Assembly (NCBI RefSeq): GCF_029392675.1
Contig: NZ_CP113941.1
Location: forward strand, 50,001 to 114,000
DNA: 64,000 bases
Direction of reading: 5' to 3'
From: Lactobacillus sp. ESL0684
GTDB taxonomy: Bacteria > Bacillota > Bacilli > Lactobacillales > Lactobacillaceae
Of this stretch, positions 1,076-12,258 are shown piece after piece. A program made the translations under genes and the position numbers. Within the stretch, counting starts at the first letter, position 1, and each line of letters opens with the position of its first letter. The notes under the pieces are model-generated. The model was not told the origin of the DNA. It saw only the letters and a list, made by a program, of their open reading frames with translations, and did no database searches.

Positions 1076-1105
1076 ACCGAGGATGAATATCATCCTCGGT
1101 TTTTT
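1076..1105. terminator. Terminator of the rrn/tRNA operon, shared with the convergent LysR gene
   Basis: Ten-base arms ACCGAGGATG and CATCCTCGGT (1076-1085 and 1091-1100) flank a 5-base loop and are followed by T6. The opposite strand is symmetric enough to also end the LysR transcript whose stop codon lies at 1104. Confidence 0.9.
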
Positions 1106-2030
1106 ACTTGATTTTTGGTTTGATTTCTAGTTCATTGAATGAATTAATTAGTTTTGTTATCCCTGGAGTTTGAGGTCTTTTTGCTTTGGTGGCAATGAAG
1201 TATCTAATATTAATTAAATTTGGGTCTAGGGGTAATAGGTTAATTGGTGTTTGTGCCATGCGTTTAATAATACTTGCTGCCGAGATCGTTAAGCCAACTC
1301 CCTTGATTGCTAAATTAGTGACAGTTATAATACTGTTGCTCTCTAATACTAGGTTGGGCTTAACGTTAAAGCGGTGAAAAATTGCATCTAGTTGATGTCT
1401 GATTGCAGAATTTGAATTACTGACAACAAATGGTTCTTGTAATAGTTCTTGCAAGTCATATTCATCAGATTCTAGAATAAACTTTCCTCTTTTAAAGTAT
1501 TTTGATTTAGGTGAAATTATGATAAAGTATTTTTCACTACCATTTATGTGGAGGTCAAATTCTTGATTAATTGATTCTGGGTTTTGTCCAATATAACAGT
1601 CTATTTGTTCATTGAGAAGATTTGTTTCATTATTTCGGGGAGAAGTTTCCTTGAGTTGAATATTAATATTAGGATTTTTATCTAGAAAATCTGGTAATAG
1701 TTGTGCTAGTAAAAAGCTTCCCAGGCTTTCCAAAATGCCAATTCTAATGACTTCTGTGTTTGGTTGAATGATAGGAAGAAGCTGTCGATTTAAATTTTCT
1801 TTATCTACAATTTCTTTTTCAAGGTATTTATAGTAAATACTTCCAGCCTTTGTTAGTGTGAAAGGAATCTGCTGTCGGTCAATAATTGTTGTACCTAATT
1901 TTTTTTCGATACGTTTAATTAACTGAGTTAAATAGGGCTGCGAAATAAATAATTCTTGAGCTGCTTTGGTAAAATTACTTTCTTTTAGTAGAACATCAAG
2001 ATAGTGTAACAAGGTTTCTGGATTTTTCAT
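1104..2030 (-). CDS. LysR-family transcriptional regulator
   Basis: A 308-residue protein of usual LysR length. Residues ~3-62 form the winged helix-turn-helix (FTKAAQELFISQPYLTQLIKRIE is the helix-turn-helix stretch, starting near residue 20); the remainder is the periplasmic-binding-like effector domain. The ATG at 2030 has a good upstream AAAGGAG. It is divergent from the FMN/FAD flavoprotein gene at 2152 across a 121-bp gap, the classic layout in which a LysR protein controls its neighbour in response to that enzyme's substrate. The effector is not readable from sequence; an unsaturated carboxylic acid is my inference. L. plantarum hydroxycinnamate reductase genes have a comparable divergent LysR. 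Confidence 0.9.
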   Translation of the reverse strand: MKNPETLLHYLDVLLKESNFTKAAQELFISQPYLTQLIKRIEKKLGTTIIDRQQIPFTLTKAGSIYYKYLEKEIVDKENLNRQLLPIIQPNTEVIRIGILESLGSFLLAQLLPDFLDKNPNINIQLKETSPRNNETNLLNEQIDCYIGQNPESINQEFDLHINGSEKYFIIISPKSKYFKRGKFILESDEYDLQELLQEPFVVSNSNSAIRHQLDAIFHRFNVKPNLVLESNSIITVTNLAIKGVGLTISAASIIKRMAQTPINLLPLDPNLINIRYFIATKAKRPQTPGITKLINSFNELEIKPKIK

Positions 2031-2151
2031 TAGTGAGCTCCTTTCGATAACAAAACTATTATAACCTATTTGCTAGAAAACTATTTCACAGATTTCGGTA
2101 AAGTTAGTAAAATTTAATTAAAAGTAATCAAAGTGAAAGGAAACTACTACG

Positions 2152-4026
2152 ATGAAAACAGGAAAATATCAAGTTAAGGCTAAGGGTCATGGTTCAAGCT
2201 CTATGCCAATGGAAGTATCAATCGAAGATGATAAAATCACTAATATCACGGTTGATTCAAGTGGTGAAACTAAAGGCGTGGCTGATGAAGTATTTAAGCG
2301 TCTACCTAAAGAAATTGTTGATTATCAAACTCTAAATGTTGATGCAATCAGTGGCGCTACTATTTCCAGTAACGGAATTGTTAGTGGTGTTGCACAGGCA
2401 ATTACAGAAGCTGATGGCGATGCAAACGAGTGGCAACAAAGGGCTAAACCAGAATTGGCACAAGCTAGCGATCAAGAGCTTACGACAGATGTTGTAGTGA
2501 TTGGTGCTGGTGGTGCTGGTTTAGCAGCTTCAGCTCGTTCAATTCAAAATGGTAAAAAGGTTATTTTATTAGAAAAATATCCACAAATCGGTGGTAATAC
2601 TACTCGCGCCGGTGGCCCAATGAATGCTGCTGAACCTGACTGGCAAAAAGAGTTTAAGGCTTTGCCTGGTGAAAAGGAAACTTTAAAAGAATTAGCAGAA
2701 ACTCCAATTGCTGAAATTGATACTGAATACCAGGATGATTTTAAACAATTACAAAAACAGATTAATGATTACTTGGCAACAGGAGCGGATTATTTATTTG
2801 ATTCAAAATTACTACATGAAATTCAAACTTATTTAGGTGGTAAAAGAACGGATCTTAATGGTCAAGAAATTCATGGTAACTATGATTTGGTTAAGGAATT
2901 AATTGAAAATGTACTTGATTCTGTTAAATGGCTAACAGATTTAGGAGTTAAGTTTGATCGTAAGCAAGTTACGATGCCAGTAGGTGCTTTATGGCGCAGA
3001 GGACACAAGCCAGTTGAACCAATGGGTTATGCTTTTGTCCATGTTTTAGGTGATTGGATTAAAGAGCACGGTGCTAATGTTTTAACTCAAACTCGGGCAC
3101 AGCATTTATTAATTGAAAATGGACAAGTAGTCGGCGTAGTTGCTAAACAAGATAATGGCAGCCAAATAACGATTCATGCTAAACAAGTTATTCTAACATC
3201 TGGTGGATTTGGTGCTAATACGCCGATGGTTCAAAAGTACAATACTTATTGGACAGAAATTGCTGATGATATTGCAACAACTAATTCACCTGCAATTACA
3301 GGTGACGGGATTGCTCTAGGACAAGAAGCCGGAGCGGATTTGGTTGGTATGGGATTCATCCAATTGATGCCAGTTTCTGATCCAAAAACCGGTGAATTGT
3401 TCTCTGGACTGCAAACTCCACCTGAAAACTTTATTATGGTTAATCAAAAGGGTGAACGGTTTGTTAATGAATTTGCTGAGCGTGATACTTTGGCTAAAGC
3501 AGCGATTGACAATGGTGGCTTGTTCTACCTAATTGCTGATGATAAGATTAAGGAAACCGCTTATAATACTACACAGGAGTCAATTGATGCTCAAGTTGAA
3601 GCTGGCACTTTATTTAAGGCCGATACGCTTGAAGAATTGGCTGAAAAAGTTGGTATGGATCCAGCAACTTTAGTAGCAACAGTTAAAAAATATAATTCTT
3701 ATGTTGATGCAGGTAAAGATCCTGAATTTGGTAAGAGTACCTTTAATTTGAAATGTGAAGTAGCACCGTTTTATGCAACTCCACGTAAACCGGCGATTCA
3801 TCATACAATGGGTGGTTTACGAATCGATCCTAAGACGCGAGTTCTTGACCAAAATGGTCAAGTAATTGCTGGTCTGTATGCTGCTGGTGAAGTGGCTGGC
3901 GGATTACATGCCGGTAATCGGTTAGGTGGAAATTCGTTGGCAGATATTTTTACGTTTGGCCGAATTGCAGCAGATACGGCTTGTGCGTCAATCCCAGATA
4001 CTGCTTCTGGCGCCTCAACACATTAA
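2152..4026 (+). CDS. FMN-binding/FAD flavoprotein, fumarate/urocanate-reductase type
   Basis: A 624-residue soluble reductase of the flavocytochrome-c/fumarate-reductase flavoprotein family. Residues ~1-90 are an FMN_bind domain with the covalent flavinylation motif DAISGAT, T70 being the likely acceptor made by an ApbE-type transferase. A Rossmann GAGGAG at 118-123 opens the FAD domain. Active-site hallmarks are RRGHKP (R283, H285), HHTMGG (H550, H551) and RLGGNS (R590), the positions used for substrate carboxylate binding and proton donation in fumarate and urocanate reductases. No haem CxxCH motif and no signal peptide are seen, so it should act in the cytoplasm. The likely role is reduction of an alpha,beta-unsaturated acid as an electron sink. 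The substrate (fumarate, urocanate, a cinnamate) is undecided. It is monocistronic, controlled by the divergent LysR, with a terminator downstream. Confidence 0.88.
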
Positions 4027-4044
4027 AAATTAAATTTAATCATT

Positions 4045-4077
4045 AAAAAGAAGTTGATCAAAGTCAACTTCTTTTTG
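4045..4077. terminator. Bidirectional terminator between the flavoprotein and citG genes
   Basis: Arms AAAAAGAAGTTGA (4045-4057) and TCAACTTCTTTTT (4064-4076) form a 13-bp stem with A- and T-runs at both ends, so it can stop transcripts from either side. Confidence 0.9.
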
Positions 4078-4078
4078 T

Positions 4079-4903
4079 TTATAAATAATTACGCTCTAAT
4101 GCTACAAAAATGGTCACGATTAACAGGTCAGCACAGCCACCTAGACTATAATTTTTATCAGTCATTTCTTGGTTAAATGCCAGTAAAAATTCCTTTCCTT
4201 GTACAGTTTGATATCCACCTAAAGCAAGATACTTTTTAGCTTGTTCTTGGATCCAAGTTACAGCACTAATGTCACCACCTGCTCGTTTAATCAAATTACT
4301 GTCAATTGCAACCGAGGCAATCTTCATTAGAGTATCCAAAATTCGCGCTTGGATAGGACCAGTTTGCTCCTTTAAGAAAGGCAGAGCGACTCGTTCAACA
4401 ATTGGATAACCACTTTGTGCCTCTTGTCTGGCACCACCATAACCGTATTTTTGATAGGTTTTTGCTCCAGCAGTTTGAAGATCACGATTTTTATTTAGAT
4501 CATGTTCGACTAAACCTGCGCACATTCGTCTAATAGTAGTGAATAATTCAGCTTGCTGCGTTTGTGCGTAACTTTCGGCGCAAACGAAAATTCCTAATGC
4601 AAAAATTGCACCCTTATGAGTATTGACGTTATTAGTGGCGGCATACATCTCTTGTTCAGCAGCAAGACCTTTTTGGCGTAATTCAAAGAACATGTCGGTT
4701 AAATTATCTTGTCTGAATGTTTGCCCTAGCATTTCAGCTGCTTTTAAATAGCTTTCTAGACTTAGGCTACTGTCAATAAAGGTATAGATATCCATGTCAG
4801 GATGTGGACCTGAGCTAACAGGGTCAACTAAGCCAGGTTTAGGCTGAGTGGCAACCTCATATAAAAGTGCGCGTAAGGCATTTTGTGTGATTGAATTAGT
4901 CAT
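4079..4903 (-). CDS. citG: Triphosphoribosyl-dephospho-CoA synthase (CitG/MdcB family)
   Basis: CitG makes 2'-(5''-triphosphoribosyl)-3'-dephospho-CoA, precursor of the prosthetic group of citrate lyase (or malonate decarboxylase). Diagnostic motifs are the N-terminal EVATQPKPGLVDPVSSGPH block, MDIYTFIDS, and NTHKGAIF. I take the ATG at 4903 (274 residues), which gives the conserved start region; an upstream ATG at 4930 adds nine residues unlike the family. It overlaps the 3' end of the LysR gene at 4896 by 8 bp, so the two are probably co-transcribed and coupled. No citrate lyase subunits (citDEF, citC, citX) are present in the window, so its partner enzyme must lie elsewhere or the gene is a remnant of such an operon. 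Confidence 0.85.
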   Translation of the reverse strand: MTNSITQNALRALLYEVATQPKPGLVDPVSSGPHPDMDIYTFIDSSLSLESYLKAAEMLGQTFRQDNLTDMFFELRQKGLAAEQEMYAATNNVNTHKGAIFALGIFVCAESYAQTQQAELFTTIRRMCAGLVEHDLNKNRDLQTAGAKTYQKYGYGGARQEAQSGYPIVERVALPFLKEQTGPIQARILDTLMKIASVAIDSNLIKRAGGDISAVTWIQEQAKKYLALGGYQTVQGKEFLLAFNQEMTDKNYSLGGCADLLIVTIFVALERNYL

Positions 4904-5825
4904 GATAATTACTATCCATAACAGATTCATCGGCTAAGTCTTGAATCATTTGTCTGCTTCCTTTTAAAAAATTAATCAAATCAAATATTTCTGGCGAAAG
5001 CTGATTAACAGGATCATAAACTAAATATAATTGTCGAGTATTTTTCGGTAAATCAATTTTTATTTTATGGATGTCGAAACCACTAAGATAAATAGTATTA
5101 GCAACAATTCCAACTAGATTATTGGTAATTACTTGACCAGCAATCGCTAATTCGTCATGAAGTCGATTGGTAATTGTTAAATCAGAAGCGGCAGCTAACA
5201 GTGCATCGGTAACATCTTTACCAATTTGAATTTTCTGGGAATAGGTAATGATATTTTCACCACGTAATTCTTCTGGTGAAATTTGTTTAATCTTTGTAAG
5301 GCTGTTTTCTTTAGCAACGATAGCAATTATTTCTTCGGTATAAAGTGGGATATAGGTAAAAGAGCGATATTTAGGGACAAAAGAACAAATTCCAATGTCA
5401 TACCAACCGTTTTCAATCCCTTCACAAACTTGGTATGAAGGATTGTCATGGTAAATAAAATGGGCTGAAGTATTACTTTCTTGTTGATAAACTTTAATGA
5501 TTTTAGGCAAAATAGTACCAATTGCAGTAGGGATGCTGGCGATATGAATGTTTCCTTGGTCTTGGCTAATTTTTTGTTTTAGCTTTTTTTTGCCATTATC
5601 AAGTGTATCTAATGAATTGACGACTGTGTCGTAGAAGATTTGTCCATAGGGCGTTAATTTTACATAATGACCAGCATGTCTAAATAGTTGACAGTGAAGC
5701 TCGTTTTCCAATTGCTTAATTGAAACGGATAAGGTAGGTTGACTAATAAAAAGTTGATTCGCTGCTTTAGTATACTGTCCTTGATCAGCTAACTCGCGAA
5801 AATAGTAAAGTTGATTTAAATTCAT
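4896..5825 (-). CDS. LysR-family transcriptional regulator
   Basis: A 309-residue LysR protein. The N-terminal helix-turn-helix is at residues ~14-45 (YTKAAN, LFISQPTLSVSIKQLE), followed by a dimerisation helix and an effector-binding domain. It is transcribed away from the MFS-flavoprotein-aroE-aroD operon (next start 6109) across a 283-bp divergent promoter region, so it is the obvious candidate regulator of that operon, probably sensing quinate, shikimate or a dehydro derivative (inference). It is followed by citG with an 8-bp overlap. It is clearly distinct in sequence from the LysR protein at 1104. Confidence 0.9.
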   Translation of the reverse strand: MNLNQLYYFRELADQGQYTKAANQLFISQPTLSVSIKQLENELHCQLFRHAGHYVKLTPYGQIFYDTVVNSLDTLDNGKKKLKQKISQDQGNIHIASIPTAIGTILPKIIKVYQQESNTSAHFIYHDNPSYQVCEGIENGWYDIGICSFVPKYRSFTYIPLYTEEIIAIVAKENSLTKIKQISPEELRGENIITYSQKIQIGKDVTDALLAAASDLTITNRLHDELAIAGQVITNNLVGIVANTIYLSGFDIHKIKIDLPKNTRQLYLVYDPVNQLSPEIFDLINFLKGSRQMIQDLADESVMDSNYHD

Positions 5826-6108
5826 TTTTTACCTCAAAAGTTTTTGTATGATACCTAAATTATAAATGTTAACTATAAAATCGCAAAGATAATTTATATT
5901 AACTAATCAAAATAATAGTGTAAAGTTCAGTAAATGAATTTTAGTAGTAAGCAGTGCAATTTCTTAAATGGTAAAATCCTAGAGTTAAAGCCTTGATAAG
6001 ATATAGTTTTATTAAATAAAGTCTAGAACAAAACTAATTGTTGTTTTTATTTAGAAAGCGGTATATTGATACTGATTAAAAAAACAAATATTTTTATAGG
6101 GAGAGTTT
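5826..6108. promoter_or_regulatory. Divergent LysR/MFS-operon control region
   Basis: A gene-free 283-bp A/T-rich stretch between two divergent starts. It holds GTTAACTATAA- and ATTAACTA-like dyads (about 5870-5905), typical of where a LysR protein would bind, and a weak cre-like AAAGCGGTAT near 6054-6063. The operon's ribosome site TAGGGAG lies just before the ATG at 6109. Individual promoter hexamers cannot be assigned with confidence. Confidence 0.4.
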
Positions 6109-7302
6109 ATGAAACGACAACGTTATGTTGGCGCAGCAACTTCTGTGTATTTGAATTATGCAGTAGTTGGTGCGGCGACAATCTTTATTAGTCAGTATCG
6201 GCAAGTCTTGGCTCAAGCTTGGCATGCTAGTGAAGCGGCTATTTCAATCGTGATGGCAATGGTTGGTTTAGGTCGAATTATTACAATTCTGTTTGCTGGT
6301 TCAATTTCTGATCGTATTGGACGTAAGCATACTTTACTGATTTCACTTGCTTGTGATATCGTTTTCTTATTAGGTGCAGCTTTTGCTAATAATGTTTGGT
6401 TAGCTGGAATTGCAGCCATGTTTTTTGGAGCAACTAATTCCTTTGGTGATACTGCTGGGTATCCTGCCTTAGCTGATGCTTTTCCAGATAAAACTGCAAC
6501 GATGAATTCGTTTGTTAAGGCAGCTATGCAGGTAATGCAAATGTTGTTTCCGTTTTGGGTTAAATTGATTAAGGATCCTAAAATTACTGCTAGTGTTTTA
6601 GTAGTTATTTTATTGCTAGATATAGTGTTAACATTAAAAGTAGCTTATGCACCACAGACTCAAGATGAAACCTCAAGTGACCAAGCTGAAGTTGAGGCAA
6701 CTGGCCAAACCGGTAATCAGCCTAAGCTGGCAGTTGATGGAGTTATGATTATTACTTTAGGTTTTACCCTTTGTTTTACTTTTTATATTTTTTCACTATA
6801 TGCGCCGTACTATGGACAGTATGTTTTAAATGAATCAGCAGCTAATGCTAATCAACTAGTGTCATGGTATTCAATTGCATCGCTAATTTCTGTGTTTGTG
6901 ACTTCAGCTTTGGTTACAAAAGTGAAGCGGCTATATTTAATTTTGACTTATGCTGCTATTTCAGCTTGTGGTTTGCTATTAATGGTACTTAATCCATCTG
7001 CTATTTCTGGTGAAATTGGTGCGGTTTTAGTTGGTTTCTTTGCGGCTGGTGGTGTTTGGCAGGTTGGTTTGTCTGTTTTGACTTCATATTTTCCACAAGG
7101 TCACGGGAAAATTACATCTTATTATAGTTTTGCACCAGCAGTGGTTTATTTTGTTGCCCCACTAGTGGCAGCCTTTGTCTTAAAAGCCAACTCGGCCAGT
7201 ACATTAATGGTTTTCTGGATTACCACGATTATCGCTATTATTTCAGTAGTTTTAACTGGTGTTTTAATTATGCGGGGACGTAAATTTAATATCGCTGAAT
7301 AA
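6109..7302 (+). CDS. MFS transporter, probable quinate/shikimate-type organic acid permease
   Basis: A 397-residue major facilitator protein with about 12 membrane segments. The MFS loop 2-3 signature GSISDRIGRKHT is at residues ~64-75, and a central cytoplasmic loop rich in Asp/Glu/Gln (~182-207) separates the two six-helix halves. It is the first gene of an operon continuing into a flavoprotein (30-bp gap), a shikimate/quinate dehydrogenase and a dehydroquinase. From that context I infer import of quinate, shikimate or a related cyclohexane carboxylate; the sequence alone does not fix the substrate. A good TAGGGAG ribosome site supports the start. Confidence 0.85.
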   Translation: MKRQRYVGAATSVYLNYAVVGAATIFISQYRQVLAQAWHASEAAISIVMAMVGLGRIITILFAGSISDRIGRKHTLLISLACDIVFLLGAAFANNVWLAGIAAMFFGATNSFGDTAGYPALADAFPDKTATMNSFVKAAMQVMQMLFPFWVKLIKDPKITASVLVVILLLDIVLTLKVAYAPQTQDETSSDQAEVEATGQTGNQPKLAVDGVMIITLGFTLCFTFYIFSLYAPYYGQYVLNESAANANQLVSWYSIASLISVFVTSALVTKVKRLYLILTYAAISACGLLLMVLNPSAISGEIGAVLVGFFAAGGVWQVGLSVLTSYFPQGHGKITSYYSFAPAVVYFVAPLVAAFVLKANSASTLMVFWITTIIAIISVVLTGVLIMRGRKFNIAE

Positions 7303-7331
7303 ATAGGCACAATTAAAAAGAAAGGTTCAAT

Positions 7332-9044
7332 ATGACAACTAAAAAAATTAAAGCACAGGCTCAAGGGCGTAATGGTCAAATTGATTTTGATATTGCTGTA
7401 GATGGAAATAAAATTACCGATTTGCAGGTAACAAAGAGTTCAGAAACTCCAGCTATTTTTGATCAAGTTTTTGGTAAATTAAAGCAGAATGTACTGGATG
7501 AACAGAGTTTTGCTGTTGATGCAGTTTCAGGTGCTTCAATTATGACGCAAGCTATGCTTGATGCAGGACAAAAGGCACTTAAGGATAATGATATTAAACC
7601 TGCCCAGTCGCAGAATAAGCCAGAACATAAAAGTGTTACTCTAGATGTTGATGTTGCAGTCGTTGGATCTGGAATGGCTGGCCTAATGGCTGCATCGCGG
7701 GCATTAGCAATGGGTAAAAAGGTTTTAGTATTAGAAAAGAACGGCTACTTAGGTGGTGCAACTGCCTTAAACGGTTCAAACGTGGTTGGTACAGGTTCAA
7801 AAGTCTCTGCTAGGTTATTGGGTGCAGAAGCTCAAAAAGATTCTGTTAGCCGCTTAGTCAAAGATATTGCGCGTGAATGTCGCGGGACTAATTATCCAAT
7901 GTTGTCAGATTTACTTGCCAATAATATTGGTAAAGCAGTTGATTTTATTACTGAATTTGCTGATTTACAATATCAAAAGGCTGAAACACAAACAGTAGAG
8001 CACTCGGTTGATCGGCAGATTGAAATGCCATCTGAAAGTTCGTATGAAGTTATAACTAAGGTGGCCAAGGCTTTTGAAGCAAAAGGCGGGAAGATCTTAT
8101 TGGATGCGCGTGTTGAAGAACTAATTAAAAATGATAGTGATAAATTAGTATCCTTAGTTGCAGAGGGTAAGCATCAGACAACTACAGTTAATTTTAAGTC
8201 ATTAATTTTAGCGGCTGGTGGCTGGGGTGCACGTGATTATCGCGAACACAAGACGAATATTCCTTACTATGGGCCAATGACTTCGACTGGTGATTATTTT
8301 GATTTTGCTAAAAACATGAACTTAGTAACACGTAATCTGGATTGGTATAAGGTATATCCACATGGCTTGGAAGTAGAACCGGGCATTGCTAAATTAACCA
8401 CATATTCTACTAAAGAAGCTACTGATATGGGTGCAATCTTTGTTAATCATGCTGGTAAACGAATTGTCAATGAATCTGCGCCGTATACTCATTTTAGGGA
8501 TGCCATTGTTGCTCAAAAAGATCAAACAGCCTACATTGTAATGGATGAGCGAATTTGGCAGAGATTCTATGCCTTATTACTAAAATATGGTTTTACTGCT
8601 GAAGAAATTGCTGGCTATTTTGCTTTGGAAGGAAAACAGAGTCCAGTTTTGGTTAAAGGTAACTTAGCCGAGGTTGCCCAAAAAGCTGGAATAGATTATG
8701 CTAATCTACAAAAGACGCTAGCGGATTATACGGCTGCAGTTAAGACAGGTTGCGACACAGAATTTGGTCGTCCGGCTAAGTTTATGCATGAGTATGAGGG
8801 TGATACCTATTATGTTATTGAACAAAAGTTGCGTTTTTGTACAACCTTAGGTGGCTATGAAACTACACCGCAAATGCAATTATTGGATACAGAACTAGAA
8901 CCAATTACTGATTTTTATGCTGCTGGTGAGATTGTGGGCGGAGCTAATGGTAAGGATTCAATGCCAAGTATGATGAATTCCTGGAGCTATGCTTCTGGTT
9001 TTGTTGCTGGTACAGCAGCAGCTGATAATACTAACGCTGATTAA
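7332..9044 (+). CDS. FMN-binding/FAD flavoprotein reductase of the shikimate/quinate cluster
   Basis: A 570-residue protein with the same layout as the flavoprotein at 2152. The N-terminal FMN_bind domain carries the flavinylation motif DAVSGAS (S69 the probable acceptor), and the FAD-dependent domain starts with GSGMAG at 112-117. The fumarate-reductase HHTMGG motif is missing: the equivalent place reads TTLGGY, and the C-terminus reads SMPSMMNSW instead of RLGGNS. It should therefore use a different substrate. Located between the transporter and aroE-like/aroD-like genes, it most likely reduces the ring double bond of shikimate or 3-dehydroshikimate, or catalyses a related enoate step. Reduction of quinate and shikimate to hydro derivatives has long been known in some lactobacilli; assigning it to this enzyme is my inference. 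Confidence 0.82.
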   Translation: MTTKKIKAQAQGRNGQIDFDIAVDGNKITDLQVTKSSETPAIFDQVFGKLKQNVLDEQSFAVDAVSGASIMTQAMLDAGQKALKDNDIKPAQSQNKPEHKSVTLDVDVAVVGSGMAGLMAASRALAMGKKVLVLEKNGYLGGATALNGSNVVGTGSKVSARLLGAEAQKDSVSRLVKDIARECRGTNYPMLSDLLANNIGKAVDFITEFADLQYQKAETQTVEHSVDRQIEMPSESSYEVITKVAKAFEAKGGKILLDARVEELIKNDSDKLVSLVAEGKHQTTTVNFKSLILAAGGWGARDYREHKTNIPYYGPMTSTGDYFDFAKNMNLVTRNLDWYKVYPHGLEVEPGIAKLTTYSTKEATDMGAIFVNHAGKRIVNESAPYTHFRDAIVAQKDQTAYIVMDERIWQRFYALLLKYGFTAEEIAGYFALEGKQSPVLVKGNLAEVAQKAGIDYANLQKTLADYTAAVKTGCDTEFGRPAKFMHEYEGDTYYVIEQKLRFCTTLGGYETTPQMQLLDTELEPITDFYAAGEIVGGANGKDSMPSMMNSWSYASGFVAGTAAADNTNAD

Positions 9045-9080
9045 TGGTAATTAAATTATTTAAATAAAGGAGAAAAAATT

Positions 9081-9995
9081 ATGGCTAATAAAATTACAGG
9101 TATAAATGGACCAATTACAGGTTGGTTAGATGGACATACGTATTTAATCGGACTGATGGCAGATCCAATTCGGCACTCAATGTCACCGACGATGCACAAC
9201 AATGCATTTGCTAAGTTAGGGTTAAATTATGCTTACCTTTGTTTTGAAGTGGGTAATGACAAATTGGGTAAAGCAGTTGATGCAATTAGAACGTTAGATA
9301 TGCGTGGTTCGAATGTGTCAATGCCGAATAAAAATGCAGTTATGCAATATTTGGATAAGCTATCACCAGCATCAAAAATGTGTGATGCAGTTAATACGAT
9401 TGTTAACGATCACGGGACGTTGACCGGTTATACAACTGATGGAATTGGCTTTGTGCAAGCTTTAAAGGATGAAGGCATTTCTGTTAAAGACAAGGTAATG
9501 ACTTTAACTGGCGCTGGTGGTGCTGCTACTCCAATTGCAGTTCAATCAGCTCTTGATGGAGTTAAGGAAATTAAGATTTTCAATATTAAAGATGCTAAAT
9601 GGGAACAAGCGGAAAAGACTGTTAAAACTATCCAAGAAAATACCAATTGCAAAGCTTCATTGACTAATCTTGATGATCAAGAAGCATTTAAAGCGGCAAT
9701 TGCAGCTAGTGATATTTATTGTGACGCAACTGGCGTGGGGATGAAACCATTAGAAGATAAAACTTTAGTTGAAGATCCAACTTGGTTCCATAAGGATATG
9801 GTTGTTTTTGATACAGTATATTCTCCGCGAACAACTAAACTGATGAAGGTTGCACAAAAAGCCGGAGTTGAACATGTTTTTGACGGAATTGGAATGATGA
9901 TCGAACAAGGTGCTGCTTCGTTTAAGTTGTGGACGGGTCAAGATATGCCTACTGATTATATTAAACAAATTATGTTTGCTGATGAAGACAAATAA
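9081..9995 (+). CDS. Shikimate/quinate dehydrogenase (AroE/YdiB family)
   Basis: A 304-residue NAD(P)-dependent dehydrogenase interconverting 3-dehydroshikimate and shikimate, or quinate and 3-dehydroquinate. Substrate-site residues are visible: SMSPTMHN (S33, S35), NVSMPNK with catalytic K84, AVNTI (N105), and TTDGIGF with D120. The nucleotide loop GAGGAA is at 144-149, and the C-terminal helix has GIGMMIEQGA. It is somewhat longer than typical AroE (~280), closer to YdiB-type enzymes. The aroD-like gene follows after 12 bp. No other aromatic-biosynthesis genes (aroA, aroB, aroC, aroK) are near, and a transporter and flavoprotein precede it, so a catabolic or redox-balancing role is more likely than biosynthesis. 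Confidence 0.92.
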   Translation: MANKITGINGPITGWLDGHTYLIGLMADPIRHSMSPTMHNNAFAKLGLNYAYLCFEVGNDKLGKAVDAIRTLDMRGSNVSMPNKNAVMQYLDKLSPASKMCDAVNTIVNDHGTLTGYTTDGIGFVQALKDEGISVKDKVMTLTGAGGAATPIAVQSALDGVKEIKIFNIKDAKWEQAEKTVKTIQENTNCKASLTNLDDQEAFKAAIAASDIYCDATGVGMKPLEDKTLVEDPTWFHKDMVVFDTVYSPRTTKLMKVAQKAGVEHVFDGIGMMIEQGAASFKLWTGQDMPTDYIKQIMFADEDK

Positions 9996-10007
9996 TTGAG
10001 GTAACCC

Positions 10008-10769
10008 ATGGCAACTGTAAAAATCAGAAATATAATTTTAGGTGAAGGCTTACCTAAAATTGCTGTCCCCAATGTTGGTAAAACCAAGGCGGAAATCATT
10101 ACTAATGCCAAGGAAATAGTTGCGGCTAGTCCTGATCTTATGGAGTGGCGGATTGACTACTATACTGAAGGTATTGAAGATAATGAGCAATTGGTTGCTA
10201 CTGCACAGCAATTACGTGAATTAGTTGGTGAATTACCTATTTTGGTAACTTTTAGAACTAAGAACGAAGGAGGCGTGTGTGATTTAGCAGAATCCGCCTA
10301 TCTTGAATTGTTGCAGACGATTATTACCAATCGCTTAGGTGATGCGGTAGATATTGAACTTTTTCATAATGAAAAACAGATAGTGGAACTAGTTGAGTTA
10401 GCTCATAAGTATAATGTGGTGGTAATTATGAGTAATCATGACTTTGAAAAGGTTCCTGGGCAAGATGTGATTGAGTTCAGGTTAAAAAAGATGGCACAAT
10501 TAGGTGCGGATGTACCTAAATTAGCATGTATGCCGCAAACACCACAAGATGTCTTAACGCTTTTAGCAGCAACTACAAATGTCCATGACCAACTACCCAA
10601 TCCATTGATTACGATGGCGATGGGAGATTTAGGTAAGGTAAGTCGGATTGCAGGGCAAGTCTTTGGATCGAGCTTATCGTTTGGAGCTGTTGGTCAAACT
10701 TCAGCTCCAGGACAACTTTCAATTGTTGATTTGCGTAACGCAGAAAAGTATTTACAAATGAATTCTTAA
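10008..10769 (+). CDS. aroD: Type I 3-dehydroquinate dehydratase
   Basis: A 253-residue class I dehydroquinase converting 3-dehydroquinate to 3-dehydroshikimate through a Schiff base. Family motifs are all present: MEWRIDYY (46-52), TFRTKNEGG (81-89), general base H144 in SNHDF, Schiff-base lysine K171 in KLACMP, and the C-terminal FGAVGQTSAPGQ. Length and residue numbering match E. coli AroD (H143, K170) almost exactly. It is the last gene of the MFS-flavoprotein-dehydrogenase operon and is followed by a strong terminator. Together with the upstream dehydrogenase it links quinate, dehydroquinate, dehydroshikimate and shikimate. Confidence 0.95.
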   Translation: MATVKIRNIILGEGLPKIAVPNVGKTKAEIITNAKEIVAASPDLMEWRIDYYTEGIEDNEQLVATAQQLRELVGELPILVTFRTKNEGGVCDLAESAYLELLQTIITNRLGDAVDIELFHNEKQIVELVELAHKYNVVVIMSNHDFEKVPGQDVIEFRLKKMAQLGADVPKLACMPQTPQDVLTLLAATTNVHDQLPNPLITMAMGDLGKVSRIAGQVFGSSLSFGAVGQTSAPGQLSIVDLRNAEKYLQMNS

Positions 10770-10788
10770 AGTCAATCTTTTTGAGCCC

Positions 10789-10832
10789 AAAGGGTATGAT
10801 ATTGCTATGTTGAGTGATATTGTACCTTTTTT
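10789..10832 (+). terminator. Terminator of the MFS-flavoprotein-aroE/aroD operon
   Basis: A 14-base-pair stem with G-U pairs (10789-10802 with 10817-10830; AAAGGGTATGATAT against ATATTGTACCTTTT), followed by T's to 10832. Confidence 0.85.
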
Positions 10833-10858
10833 GTTATATAACAAATCAAAATAAATAT

Positions 10859-10886
10859 TTGATAAAGTTAAGTTATACTGTATTAT
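10859..10886 (+). promoter_or_regulatory. Probable promoter of the SLAP protein gene
   Basis: TTGATA (10859-10864) and TATTAT (10881-10886) are separated by 16 bp, about 34 bp before the start codon. It sits between the upstream operon terminator and a GAAAGGA ribosome site. Confidence 0.55.
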
Positions 10887-10919
10887 ATAACTTAGGAAAC
10901 TAATTGAAAGGATATGATG

Positions 10920-11840
10920 ATGTTGGGAAAGATAAAAGATATTAAAGTTAGCACATTGGTAGTTGCTAGCTTAGGTTTAACTGGTGTTGCTGCAGGCAGC
11001 ACACTAATGCTTAATAATCAAGTAGTTAAGGCAGCCGATACTACGAATACAGCCACTAAAACTGCGACTGCTGACCAAGGGGTCGAAAAAGAATTATTTC
11101 ATAATGCTTATATTTATGATCAAAATGGTCAACGAACTAACGACGTTGCTTTGAAAACTGGTACTAAGGTTGCAACTTATGGCACTAAGATTATTAATGG
11201 ACGTAAGTTTTATAGTTTAGGTCAAGATTTATATTTGGCTGCCGGTAATATTGATAATAAAACTTGGACTGTGACTCACAATTCTGTTATTTATAATCAA
11301 TATGGTGAGGCTACTAGTCAGGGTAAACTTAAAGGTGGCACTAGTATTGCGACTTATGGTGATCCTGTAGTCATGCATGGCGAAGAATATTATAGTATTG
11401 GCAATGATCAATTTGTTAAAAAGGCAGATCTTAATGATAACGCTGCTACACCGCAGCGTCCTGGCTATATTGAGGGAATTGTAGTCAATGGCAATGTTAA
11501 GCGAGATACTTATATCTATGATCAAAATGGTCAGCGGACTAATAAATTAATTCTTAGTGTAGGGTCAATGTGTTATGCTGCTGTATCTGAAACGATTAAT
11601 GGTCAAGAATTTTATGAATTCGGTAATGGTGAACGAATTCCGGCAGATAACATTGATGGCACTAAACGTGGGCTTACTCATAATGCTTATATTTATAATC
11701 GGTATGGTCAACGAGTTGGTCGGCAGGTTGTCAAGGCAGGTCAAACATTGCGTACATACGGCAAGCCGGTAACTATTAAAAATAAAGCTTACTATACAAT
11801 TGATAATAATCGCTATGTTAAGCAAGCTAATTTTAACTAG
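10920..11840 (+). CDS. Secreted SLAP-domain surface protein
   Basis: A 306-residue secreted protein of the Lactobacillus S-layer-associated type. A signal peptide (residues ~1-38, ending near VVKA) is followed by four related units of about 60 residues, each starting HN(A/S)-x-IY(D/N)-x-(N/Y)GQR-like and ending in a YxxG-N-x-xY motif; these are SLAP (S-layer protein A) repeats that bind the cell wall non-covalently. Almost the whole mature protein is wall-binding repeats, with no separate effector domain. Three in-frame ATGs stand in tandem; the third (10920) has the right 7-base distance from GAAAGGA. It has its own promoter and terminator. Confidence 0.88.
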   Translation: MLGKIKDIKVSTLVVASLGLTGVAAGSTLMLNNQVVKAADTTNTATKTATADQGVEKELFHNAYIYDQNGQRTNDVALKTGTKVATYGTKIINGRKFYSLGQDLYLAAGNIDNKTWTVTHNSVIYNQYGEATSQGKLKGGTSIATYGDPVVMHGEEYYSIGNDQFVKKADLNDNAATPQRPGYIEGIVVNGNVKRDTYIYDQNGQRTNKLILSVGSMCYAAVSETINGQEFYEFGNGERIPADNIDGTKRGLTHNAYIYNRYGQRVGRQVVKAGQTLRTYGKPVTIKNKAYYTIDNNRYVKQANFN

Positions 11841-11933: not shown

Positions 11934-12167
11934 TTAGTCTTCGCTGTATGTGCCAACTTCTTTTAAGTTACCTAATACACTCTTACCGTGAGGAGATTGA
12001 GCAATTGCCTCAGTCAAGTCACGACCAGCTTCAACACCGTGATGTTCACCATCAGTCCAATGAGAATTGCCAGTTACATCGTAAACAGTACCGTCAATCG
12101 CAACGTATGCAGGGTTACCATTCTTACCATCAAATTTTGCTAAAGATTCTTTTGTGAATTTTTCCAT
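11934..12167 (-). CDS. Cytochrome b5-like haem/steroid-binding domain protein
   Basis: A 77-residue single-domain protein of the Cyt-b5 family. It has F-T-x-E-x-L-x-x-F-(D)-G at the start, then AYVAIDGTVYDVTG, HWTDGEHHG and AGRDLTEAIAQSPHG, typical of short bacterial b5-like proteins. The HHG and SPHG histidines correspond to the haem or ligand pocket. No signal peptide or membrane anchor is seen, so it is cytoplasmic. The physiological partner is unknown in lactobacilli. ATG at 12167 is preferred over 12176, which sits too close to the purine-rich ribosome site. It is a single gene. Confidence 0.85.
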   Translation of the reverse strand: MEKFTKESLAKFDGKNGNPAYVAIDGTVYDVTGNSHWTDGEHHGVEAGRDLTEAIAQSPHGKSVLGNLKEVGTYSED

Positions 12168-12258
12168 TAAAAACATCTCTTTCTCTTTTATTCAAACGTT
12201 ATTCTTATGATTATGATAATCTTTTAACGGCATAAAGTCTATTAATTAGCTTATATAT

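Follow-up and report, generated by a model that had tools for sequence, protein, structure and literature searches.

Work by Whiting and colleagues on Lactobacillus pastorianus and L. plantarum reportedly covered an NAD-dependent hydroaromatic dehydrogenase and dihydroxycyclohexanecarboxylate as a final product. According to the accessible part of PMC13204703, lactic acid bacteria obtain a hydrogen acceptor by converting quinate, via shikimate, into dihydroshikimate, and the portion consulted of PMC7427622 reports dihydroshikimic acid made from chlorogenic acid by these bacteria. In the bee gut, quinate use is common to several members, as given without species resolution in the available text of PMC5726620. 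Our literature search found no gene named for quinate or shikimate reduction in lactobacilli, which is weak evidence of absence, most subscription papers having been out of its reach. In Escherichia coli K-12, the genes ydiM-ydiN-ydiB-aroD place MFS transporters ahead of a quinate/shikimate dehydrogenase and a type I AroD, all in one direction, an arrangement resembled by the operon that we analyse here. This operon lies in the genome of Lactobacillus sp. ESL0684 (a single contig, NZ_CP113941.1, of 1,889,244 bases, 99.97% complete), within a stretch of 64,000 nucleotides (bases 50001-114000) henceforth called the window, and it combines an MFS permease and an AroE-AroD pair with a flavoprotein of the FMN_bind/FAD_binding_2 type. 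From its sequence we suggest, with a probability of roughly 0.75, that through this operon quinate and shikimate would serve a fermenting Lactobacillus as external electron acceptors, by way of a flavoprotein that saturates the ring.

The genes concerned are the following, in window positions:

4896-5825, minus strand: LysR-family regulator, divergent from the operon (gene calls and domain match)
5826-6108, no strand: divergent promoter/operator region of 283 bases between the LysR gene and the MFS gene
6109-7302, plus strand: MFS permease, presumed quinate/shikimate importer (PF07690, E 7e-32; 29% identical to E. coli YdiM and YdiN)
7332-9044, plus strand: FMN_bind/FAD_binding_2 flavoprotein of 570 amino acids, presumed dehydroshikimate/shikimate ene-reductase (domains, motifs)
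9081-9995, plus strand: YdiB-type AroE, quinate/shikimate dehydrogenase (family models, PDB matches, aligned residues)
10008-10769, plus strand: type I AroD, 3-dehydroquinate dehydratase (family model, aligned catalytic residues)
10789-10830, plus strand: terminator-like hairpin of 18 pairs, three of them G-C, directly 3' of the AroD gene

The four plus-strand genes from the permease to AroD form a tight operon, with gaps of 29, 36 and 12 bases. An earlier note on this stretch had described the same makeup (an MFS permease, an FMN_bind/FAD flavoprotein, an AroE/YdiB-type dehydrogenase and a type I dehydroquinase behind a divergent LysR gene), and the genes are found where it placed them. Its premise that some lactobacilli reduce quinate and shikimate to hydroaromatics is a phenotype in print, in the part of PMC13204703 that could be accessed. 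The reading that it proposed, of import, interconversion and ring reduction by the flavoprotein, is supported by the observations below, ring reduction itself being a step that we still infer.

In the known chemistry of these acids, quinate is oxidised with NAD+ to 3-dehydroquinate, which loses water to give 3-dehydroshikimate, and this is reduced with NADH to shikimate. The operon very probably handles quinate and shikimate, and there is a good probability, judging from the sequence comparisons, that its flavoprotein reduces a ring C=C bond; as to the substrate of this reduction, we lean towards 3-dehydroshikimate rather than shikimate. The MFS permease would import both acids, the YdiB-type AroE would convert quinate into 3-dehydroquinate and AroD the latter into 3-dehydroshikimate, following the known chemistry of their families, and shikimate would join at 3-dehydroshikimate through AroE. 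The flavoprotein would then reduce the ring C=C bond of 3-dehydroshikimate, conjugated to both ketone and carboxylate, after which AroE or a second dehydrogenase may reduce the keto group and yield dihydroshikimate. Electrons would come from NAD(P)H, through a fused FMN_red domain in some relatives and presumably through a separate flavin reductase here; flavinylation would fall to the single ApbE, encoded outside this operon, and the effector of LysR is presumably one of the two acids or an intermediate. By our own count, each molecule of quinate or shikimate would allow a net re-oxidation of one NADH.

The flavoprotein matches FMN_bind with 49.0 bits and FAD_binding_2 with 124.6 bits, both above the Pfam cut-offs, and shows no signal sequence visible by eye. 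Motifs were counted in 70 clade proteins longer than 540 residues, namely 69 orthologs and the protein of locus L153 (loci and genomes bear L and G numbers) from a metagenome-assembled genome (MAG). The flavinylation motif DAVSGAS occupies residues 63-69, and the pattern D..[STA]GA[ST] occurs in 69 of the 70; the ApbE motif is described as [S/T]GA[S/T]-like in the available part of PMC10979944. With this motif, and with one ApbE match in the genome, elsewhere than in the operon, the flavoprotein should carry covalent FMN. Two further elements, K340-x-YPHG and RF-x-TTLGG, form a signature: K.YP[HN]G is present in 70/70 clade proteins and RF.T[ST][LM]GG in 66/70, with HH.MGG in none. Compared with fumarate reductases, HHTMGG is replaced by CTTLGG, the Arg after NE..T by Tyr385 and the Arg of NRLGG by Ser543 (in DSMPS), all of them positions that we take to bind substrate in those enzymes. 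The protein scores 194.7 bits against TIGR01813, below the cut-off of 285.45, and does not have the fumarate-reductase motif.

The flavinylation motif and the missing HHTMGG thus stand as the earlier note gave them, but the absence of HHTMGG is not distinctive in this genome. Among nine other FMN_bind/FAD proteins aligned, it is found only in the neighbouring fumarate-reductase-type protein FRD1, and since the remaining eight, some of which may be cut by locus ends, are likewise without it, its absence alone says little. FMN_bind matches 14 places in these 1.9 Mb, mostly long frames resembling FAD flavoproteins with varied motifs (of the 13 other places, two were unfetched and two are short), and these may represent a large set of electron-acceptor reductases. 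The genome also has three FMN_red matches outside the operon, two of which lie together with ApbE at about 1.651-1.654 Mb. There, genome positions 1645843-1653659 group one FMN_bind flavoprotein, the sole ApbE match and these two FMN_red matches, possibly a shared station for flavinylation and electron supply.

The association of the flavoprotein with AroE and AroD extends well beyond this genome. A search of 301 genomes of the family gave a match at E 1e-30 in 42, of which 34 hold orthologs by our own reading (45-75% identical) and eight only distant relatives; three of the 34 (G118, G019, G078) have a broken or partial copy. A scan of contigs led to 76 loci, 74 of them at 48-79% identity and two, from Bacillota MAGs, at 33-34%, the closest flavoproteins (71-79% identical) being in records named Lactobacillus. 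With AroE counted at 60% identity at least, and both genes sought within 8 kb of the flavoprotein, AroE and AroD are both found near it in 52 of the 61 loci with full flanks (one flank of 5 kb or more, the other of 3 kb or more). Over all 76 loci, with broken frames scored as present, AroE is found in 63, AroD in 62, LysR in 61, MFS in 58 and ApbE in 26, and the partner genes stay while gene order shifts between lineages. These counts are not independent events, because near relatives are included (for example, three Furfurilactobacillus milii). The linkage of AroE and AroD to the flavoprotein is far beyond chance, and the conserved synteny across lactobacilli that had been proposed as a check is borne out. 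Counted by eye, a type I dehydroquinase match occurs in 33/34 genomes with flavoprotein orthologs versus 133/267 without, a co-occurrence that we regard as supportive and no more, because the enzyme is also biosynthetic.

Some of these loci belong to species with a history in this field. Lactobacillus pastorianus, said to be the classical maker of dihydroshikimate, is placed by the NCBI taxonomy in Secundilactobacillus paracollinoides, whose locus L121 contains the flavoprotein, AroE, ApbE and MFS; in this draft sequence AroD and a second MFS gene are split, and LysR is short. The L. plantarum locus (L115) has the operon set plus an extra AroE pair and an SDR gene. The L. plantarum genes lp_3490 and lp_3491 were considered as orthologues and set aside, as the correspondence was not established; both are up with cranberry proanthocyanidins in the accessible part of PMC8004764, and lp_3491 is up in carrot juice in that of PMC4895336, and neither report is used here as evidence. 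Broken or incomplete operons or flavoproteins (L096, L148, L150, L151, L154) occur in L. kitasatonis, Periweissella beninensis, Tetragenococcus halophilus, Bombilactobacillus apium and L. pasteurii, which suggests repeated loss of the pathway.

The linkage recurs in a second clade. A profile search of 395 Lactobacillales genomes, from which all 12 places in the score range of about 30% identity were fetched, uncovered a sister clade that is about 30% identical to the window flavoprotein and sits in other Lactobacillales families. Both an AroE-type gene and AroD are present in seven of these 12 loci (L184-L189, L191); L183 has AroD only, L180, L182 and L190 have neither gene, and L181, at a contig edge, combines a paralog of AroE with genes for an SDR and an AP_endonuc_2 protein. 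The elements K-x-YP[HN]G and RF-x-TT[LM]GG are common to both clades, and Tyr385 is not found in the sister clade. The window flavoprotein is 25-32% identical to the aligned fumarate-reductase-type and sister proteins and 48-79% within its own clade, and in a FastTree analysis of 40 sequences, nine of them untrimmed, each clade has a support of 1.0 and both clades together with the MAG protein L153 one of 0.94. As controls we took 21 fumarate-reductase-like loci, four from the 33 lower-scoring places of the order search and 17 from a phylum search; none of the 21, several of which are cut by contig ends, has AroE or AroD beside the flavoprotein, and HHTMGG is found in 19 (it is absent in L204 and unchecked in L199). 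The phylum-wide search itself, over 398 genomes at E 1e-90, gave no further clade member, and its 17 other places are fumarate-reductase-like (HHTMGG in 16/17, K.YP[HN]G in 0/17).

A different enzyme may take the place of the flavoprotein in some genomes. We inspected 20 type I AroD loci, among the highest-scoring, from flavoprotein-negative genomes, and in three of them (L160, L161, L165) an enzyme of 672-678 residues directly adjoins AroD and lies near AroE. It is an Oxidored_FMN/Pyr_redox_2 protein according to Pfam in the two scanned, and the nearest NCBIfam model of the L161 enzyme is BaiCD, an enone reductase, with a score of 477 below the cut-off of 825. This BaiCD-like enzyme was found in 7/301 family genomes: three with AroE and AroD, one (L195) with AroE but without a visible AroD, two (G122, G271) beside the flavoprotein and one (L196) as a broken copy without AroE; the window genome has no match to it at E 1e-120. 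We take the presence of a different reductase family in the same neighbourhood as the best indication that a ring double bond is reduced in the missing step, and a BaiCD-like neighbour favours the enone 3-dehydroshikimate as the substrate.

These observations also bear on an alternative that we consider unlikely, in which the operon just interconverts quinate and shikimate while the flavoprotein, like HcrB (which presumably has the same architecture), acts as the reductase of an accompanying plant acid, for instance a hydroxycinnamate from chlorogenic acid. The superfamily does include this L. plantarum hydroxycinnamate reductase, as stated in the accessible part of PMC10295242, and chlorogenic acid brings quinate and caffeate together, according to that of PMC12248444. 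However, AroE and AroD recur by the flavoprotein in two clades, and in three genomes lacking the flavoprotein another reductase family adjoins these two genes, which argues for the flavoprotein as a step of the quinate/shikimate pathway.

Several findings weigh against ring reduction of quinate and shikimate derivatives by this operon. Since other residues occupy the fumarate-binding positions, the chemistry of the active site is not readable across from the fumarate reductases. Nine of the 61 full-flank loci are without AroE or AroD: in L148, L150 and L154 the flavoproteins are broken, and in L122, L128, L132, L136, L139 and L096 they are long (AroE is kept as two paralogs in L132 and as one gene in L128 and L139, and AroD in L096). 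G210 encodes the flavoprotein and has no type I dehydroquinase match in its genome, and in other lineages the MFS proteins mostly reach just 25-35% identity. Loci L136 and L139 have an old-yellow enzyme near the flavoprotein, and so, more distantly, do the two MAG loci (L152, L153); near or fused to the flavoprotein, such an enzyme may be its electron partner and not its substitute. In 12 of the 20 AroD loci, an AroE of the same type (65-71% identical) is near AroD with no flavoprotein, and in L170 a chorismate synthase lies two genes beyond the AroE-AroD pair, the other loci being unscanned for it; because the same pair exists without the flavoprotein, it is not proof of catabolism.

The fusion partners of the flavoprotein hint at the direction of the reaction. 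A C-terminal extension of FMN_red length is present in 16/31 sequences and 26/76 loci, and Pfam confirmed the FMN_red domain on one extended ortholog (L057). Among eight sister proteins scanned with Pfam, four have an N-terminal Oxidored_FMN domain, one (L188) an N-terminal FMN_red domain and three neither. In L183, L185, L187 and L190, this Oxidored_FMN (old-yellow-enzyme) domain is fused to FMN_bind and FAD_binding_2 in proteins of about 970 amino acids, and AroD is in the locus of the first three. Separately, AP_endonuc_2-like and/or SDR genes occur in the clusters L106, L120, L127, L131, L140, L141, L143 and L115. In L106, the AP_endonuc_2 protein faintly matches the dehydroshikimate dehydratase QuiC (E 7e-5), the SDR matches a hydroxycyclohexanecarboxylate dehydrogenase below the cut-off, and these genes may possibly encode further hydroaromatic steps.

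It is very unlikely that the flavoprotein is instead a dehydrogenase, desaturating a hydroaromatic acid towards protocatechuate or catechol. A weak similarity to NF053677, a model of oxocyclohexanecarboxylate dehydrogenases (E 1.5e-27, far under the cut-off), would fit such a role, as would the AP_endonuc_2 genes of some clusters with the QuiC match in L106, whereas the fused FMN_red or Oxidored_FMN domains point to an NAD(P)H donor, the window operon has no AP_endonuc_2 gene, and a fermenting host offers no obvious acceptor. Returning to ring reduction as the preferred function, we tentatively propose that the Lactobacillales flavoproteins with K-x-YP[HN]G and RFxTT[LM]GG could be an unrecognised family of reductases of 3-dehydroshikimate, a hydroaromatic enone, variously fused and replaceable by a BaiCD-like enzyme, and that clusters with AP_endonuc_2, SDR and extra AroE genes might lead to dihydroxycyclohexanecarboxylate through removal of a ring hydroxyl. 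As part of the same tentative proposal, the electron input of this family could be modular, with plain, FMN_red-fused or old-yellow-enzyme-fused members.

The two enzymes beside the flavoprotein look intact. AroE is 49% identical to E. coli YdiB, its best PDB matches are 3tnl and the YdiB entries, and its K84 and D120 align with YdiB K71 and D107, so that its substrate and catalytic residues as well as family similarity place it in the YdiB type. It scores 472.8 against the shikimate dehydrogenase model NF001313 (cut-off 431) and 326.6 against the quinate/shikimate dehydrogenase model NF009390; because the latter is under its cut-off of 349, quinate use by AroE is likely yet unproven by sequence. 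YdiB R156 corresponds to I169 and YdiB D158 to D171, the Arg being lost in 48 and the Asp retained in 61 of 64 aligned AroE sequences, a pattern that suggests the use of NAD, given the roles that we take these two residues to have in cofactor choice. In AroD, E87, H144 and K171 align with E. coli E86, H143 and K170 and are invariant in 61 sequences, and its score of 228.6 against TIGR01093 (cut-off 139.3), together with these Schiff-base Lys, His and Glu residues, makes it a type I enzyme. Because their catalytic residues are kept, neither AroE nor AroD is decaying.

The type I AroD family (PF01487) and the shikimate dehydrogenase N-domain (PF08501) have one match each in the whole genome, both inside the operon, and chorismate synthase has none, with a model that is positive in 14/14 control genomes. 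The operon is thus not feeding aromatic synthesis, in agreement with the earlier claim that no aromatic-biosynthesis genes accompany it. The complete shikimate pathway elsewhere that would have spoken against the note was not found, and this Lactobacillus apparently cannot synthesise aromatic amino acids itself. The idea of a remnant aromatic-biosynthesis locus with an ordinary fumarate reductase beside it is hardly credible: both the AroE and the AroD family have biosynthetic members too, and L170 carries the same pair near chorismate synthase, but a biosynthesis locus is rejected by the unmatched chorismate synthase and the intact catalytic residues, and an ordinary fumarate reductase by HH.MGG in 0/70 clade proteins and AroE or AroD in 0/21 control loci.

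With regard to regulation, LysR proteins 72-76% identical to that of the window are in the same divergent position, by MFS proteins 75-77% identical, in five related loci. An operator search in six aligned divergent regions gave no clear site, the regions being too AT-rich, and promoter-like matches over 5700-11000 are at chance level (14 observed versus 17.3 expected). Terminator-like sites number six in a 5.3-kb stretch, versus 3.3 expected by chance, so that the case for a terminator lies in the placement of the hairpin and not in the number of sites. Two neighbouring genes are located upstream:

2152-4026, plus strand: FRD1, a fumarate-reductase-type FMN_bind/FAD flavoprotein with HHTMGG, outside the operon
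4079-4930, minus strand: CitG (triphosphoribosyl-dephospho-CoA synthase), overlapping the LysR gene by 35 bases

Over positions 1104-4930, FRD1 has its own divergent LysR and is followed by the minus-strand CitG, which is probably not part of the quinate/shikimate pathway; the whole block LysR-FRD-CitG-LysR-MFS-flavoprotein-AroE-AroD is conserved in L085, L101 and L146. Directly downstream of the operon lies a gene for a protein with SlpA surface-layer domains (10914-11840, plus strand). An 80-residue protein (11934-12176, minus strand) resembles, by eye, a cytochrome b5-type haem domain, unusual in a lactobacillus.

The operon offers a candidate gene for a long-known reaction of lactobacilli, and its signature would predict which species reduce quinate and shikimate. 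If our reading is true, annotations as 'fumarate reductase' would be corrected, the use of dietary quinate by plant-associated and gut lactobacilli would be in part explained, and a ring reductase for chiral cyclohexane acids would become available.

Both the superfamily of the flavoprotein and the dehydrogenase-dehydratase pair are already known, and the shikimate-linked clade, its signature and its assignment appear to be new within the literature searched. The window proteins are 49% (AroE), 44% (AroD) and 29% (MFS) identical to their E. coli ydi counterparts, but the E. coli region, over 15 kb, is without an annotated FMN_bind/FAD flavoprotein and has instead ydiF, ydiO and electron-transfer flavoprotein genes. 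The BaiCD-type old-yellow enzymes adjoin AroE-AroD in three flavoprotein-negative genomes, but are another protein family. The closest solved chain, 2lfc (E 5e-49, residues 348-501), which we take to originate from L. plantarum, is a chain of 160 residues named 'Fumarate reductase, flavoprotein subunit' by homology, and the best long PDB matches are the flavocytochrome c3 fumarate reductases and urocanate reductase. With the flavocytochrome c and FMN_bind-FAD_binding_2 reductases of fumarate, urocanate and hydroxycinnamate, the window protein shares its domains and flavinylation motif, and it differs from the flavocytochrome c reductases in having CTTLGG, Tyr385 and Ser543 in place of HHTMGG and the two Arg.

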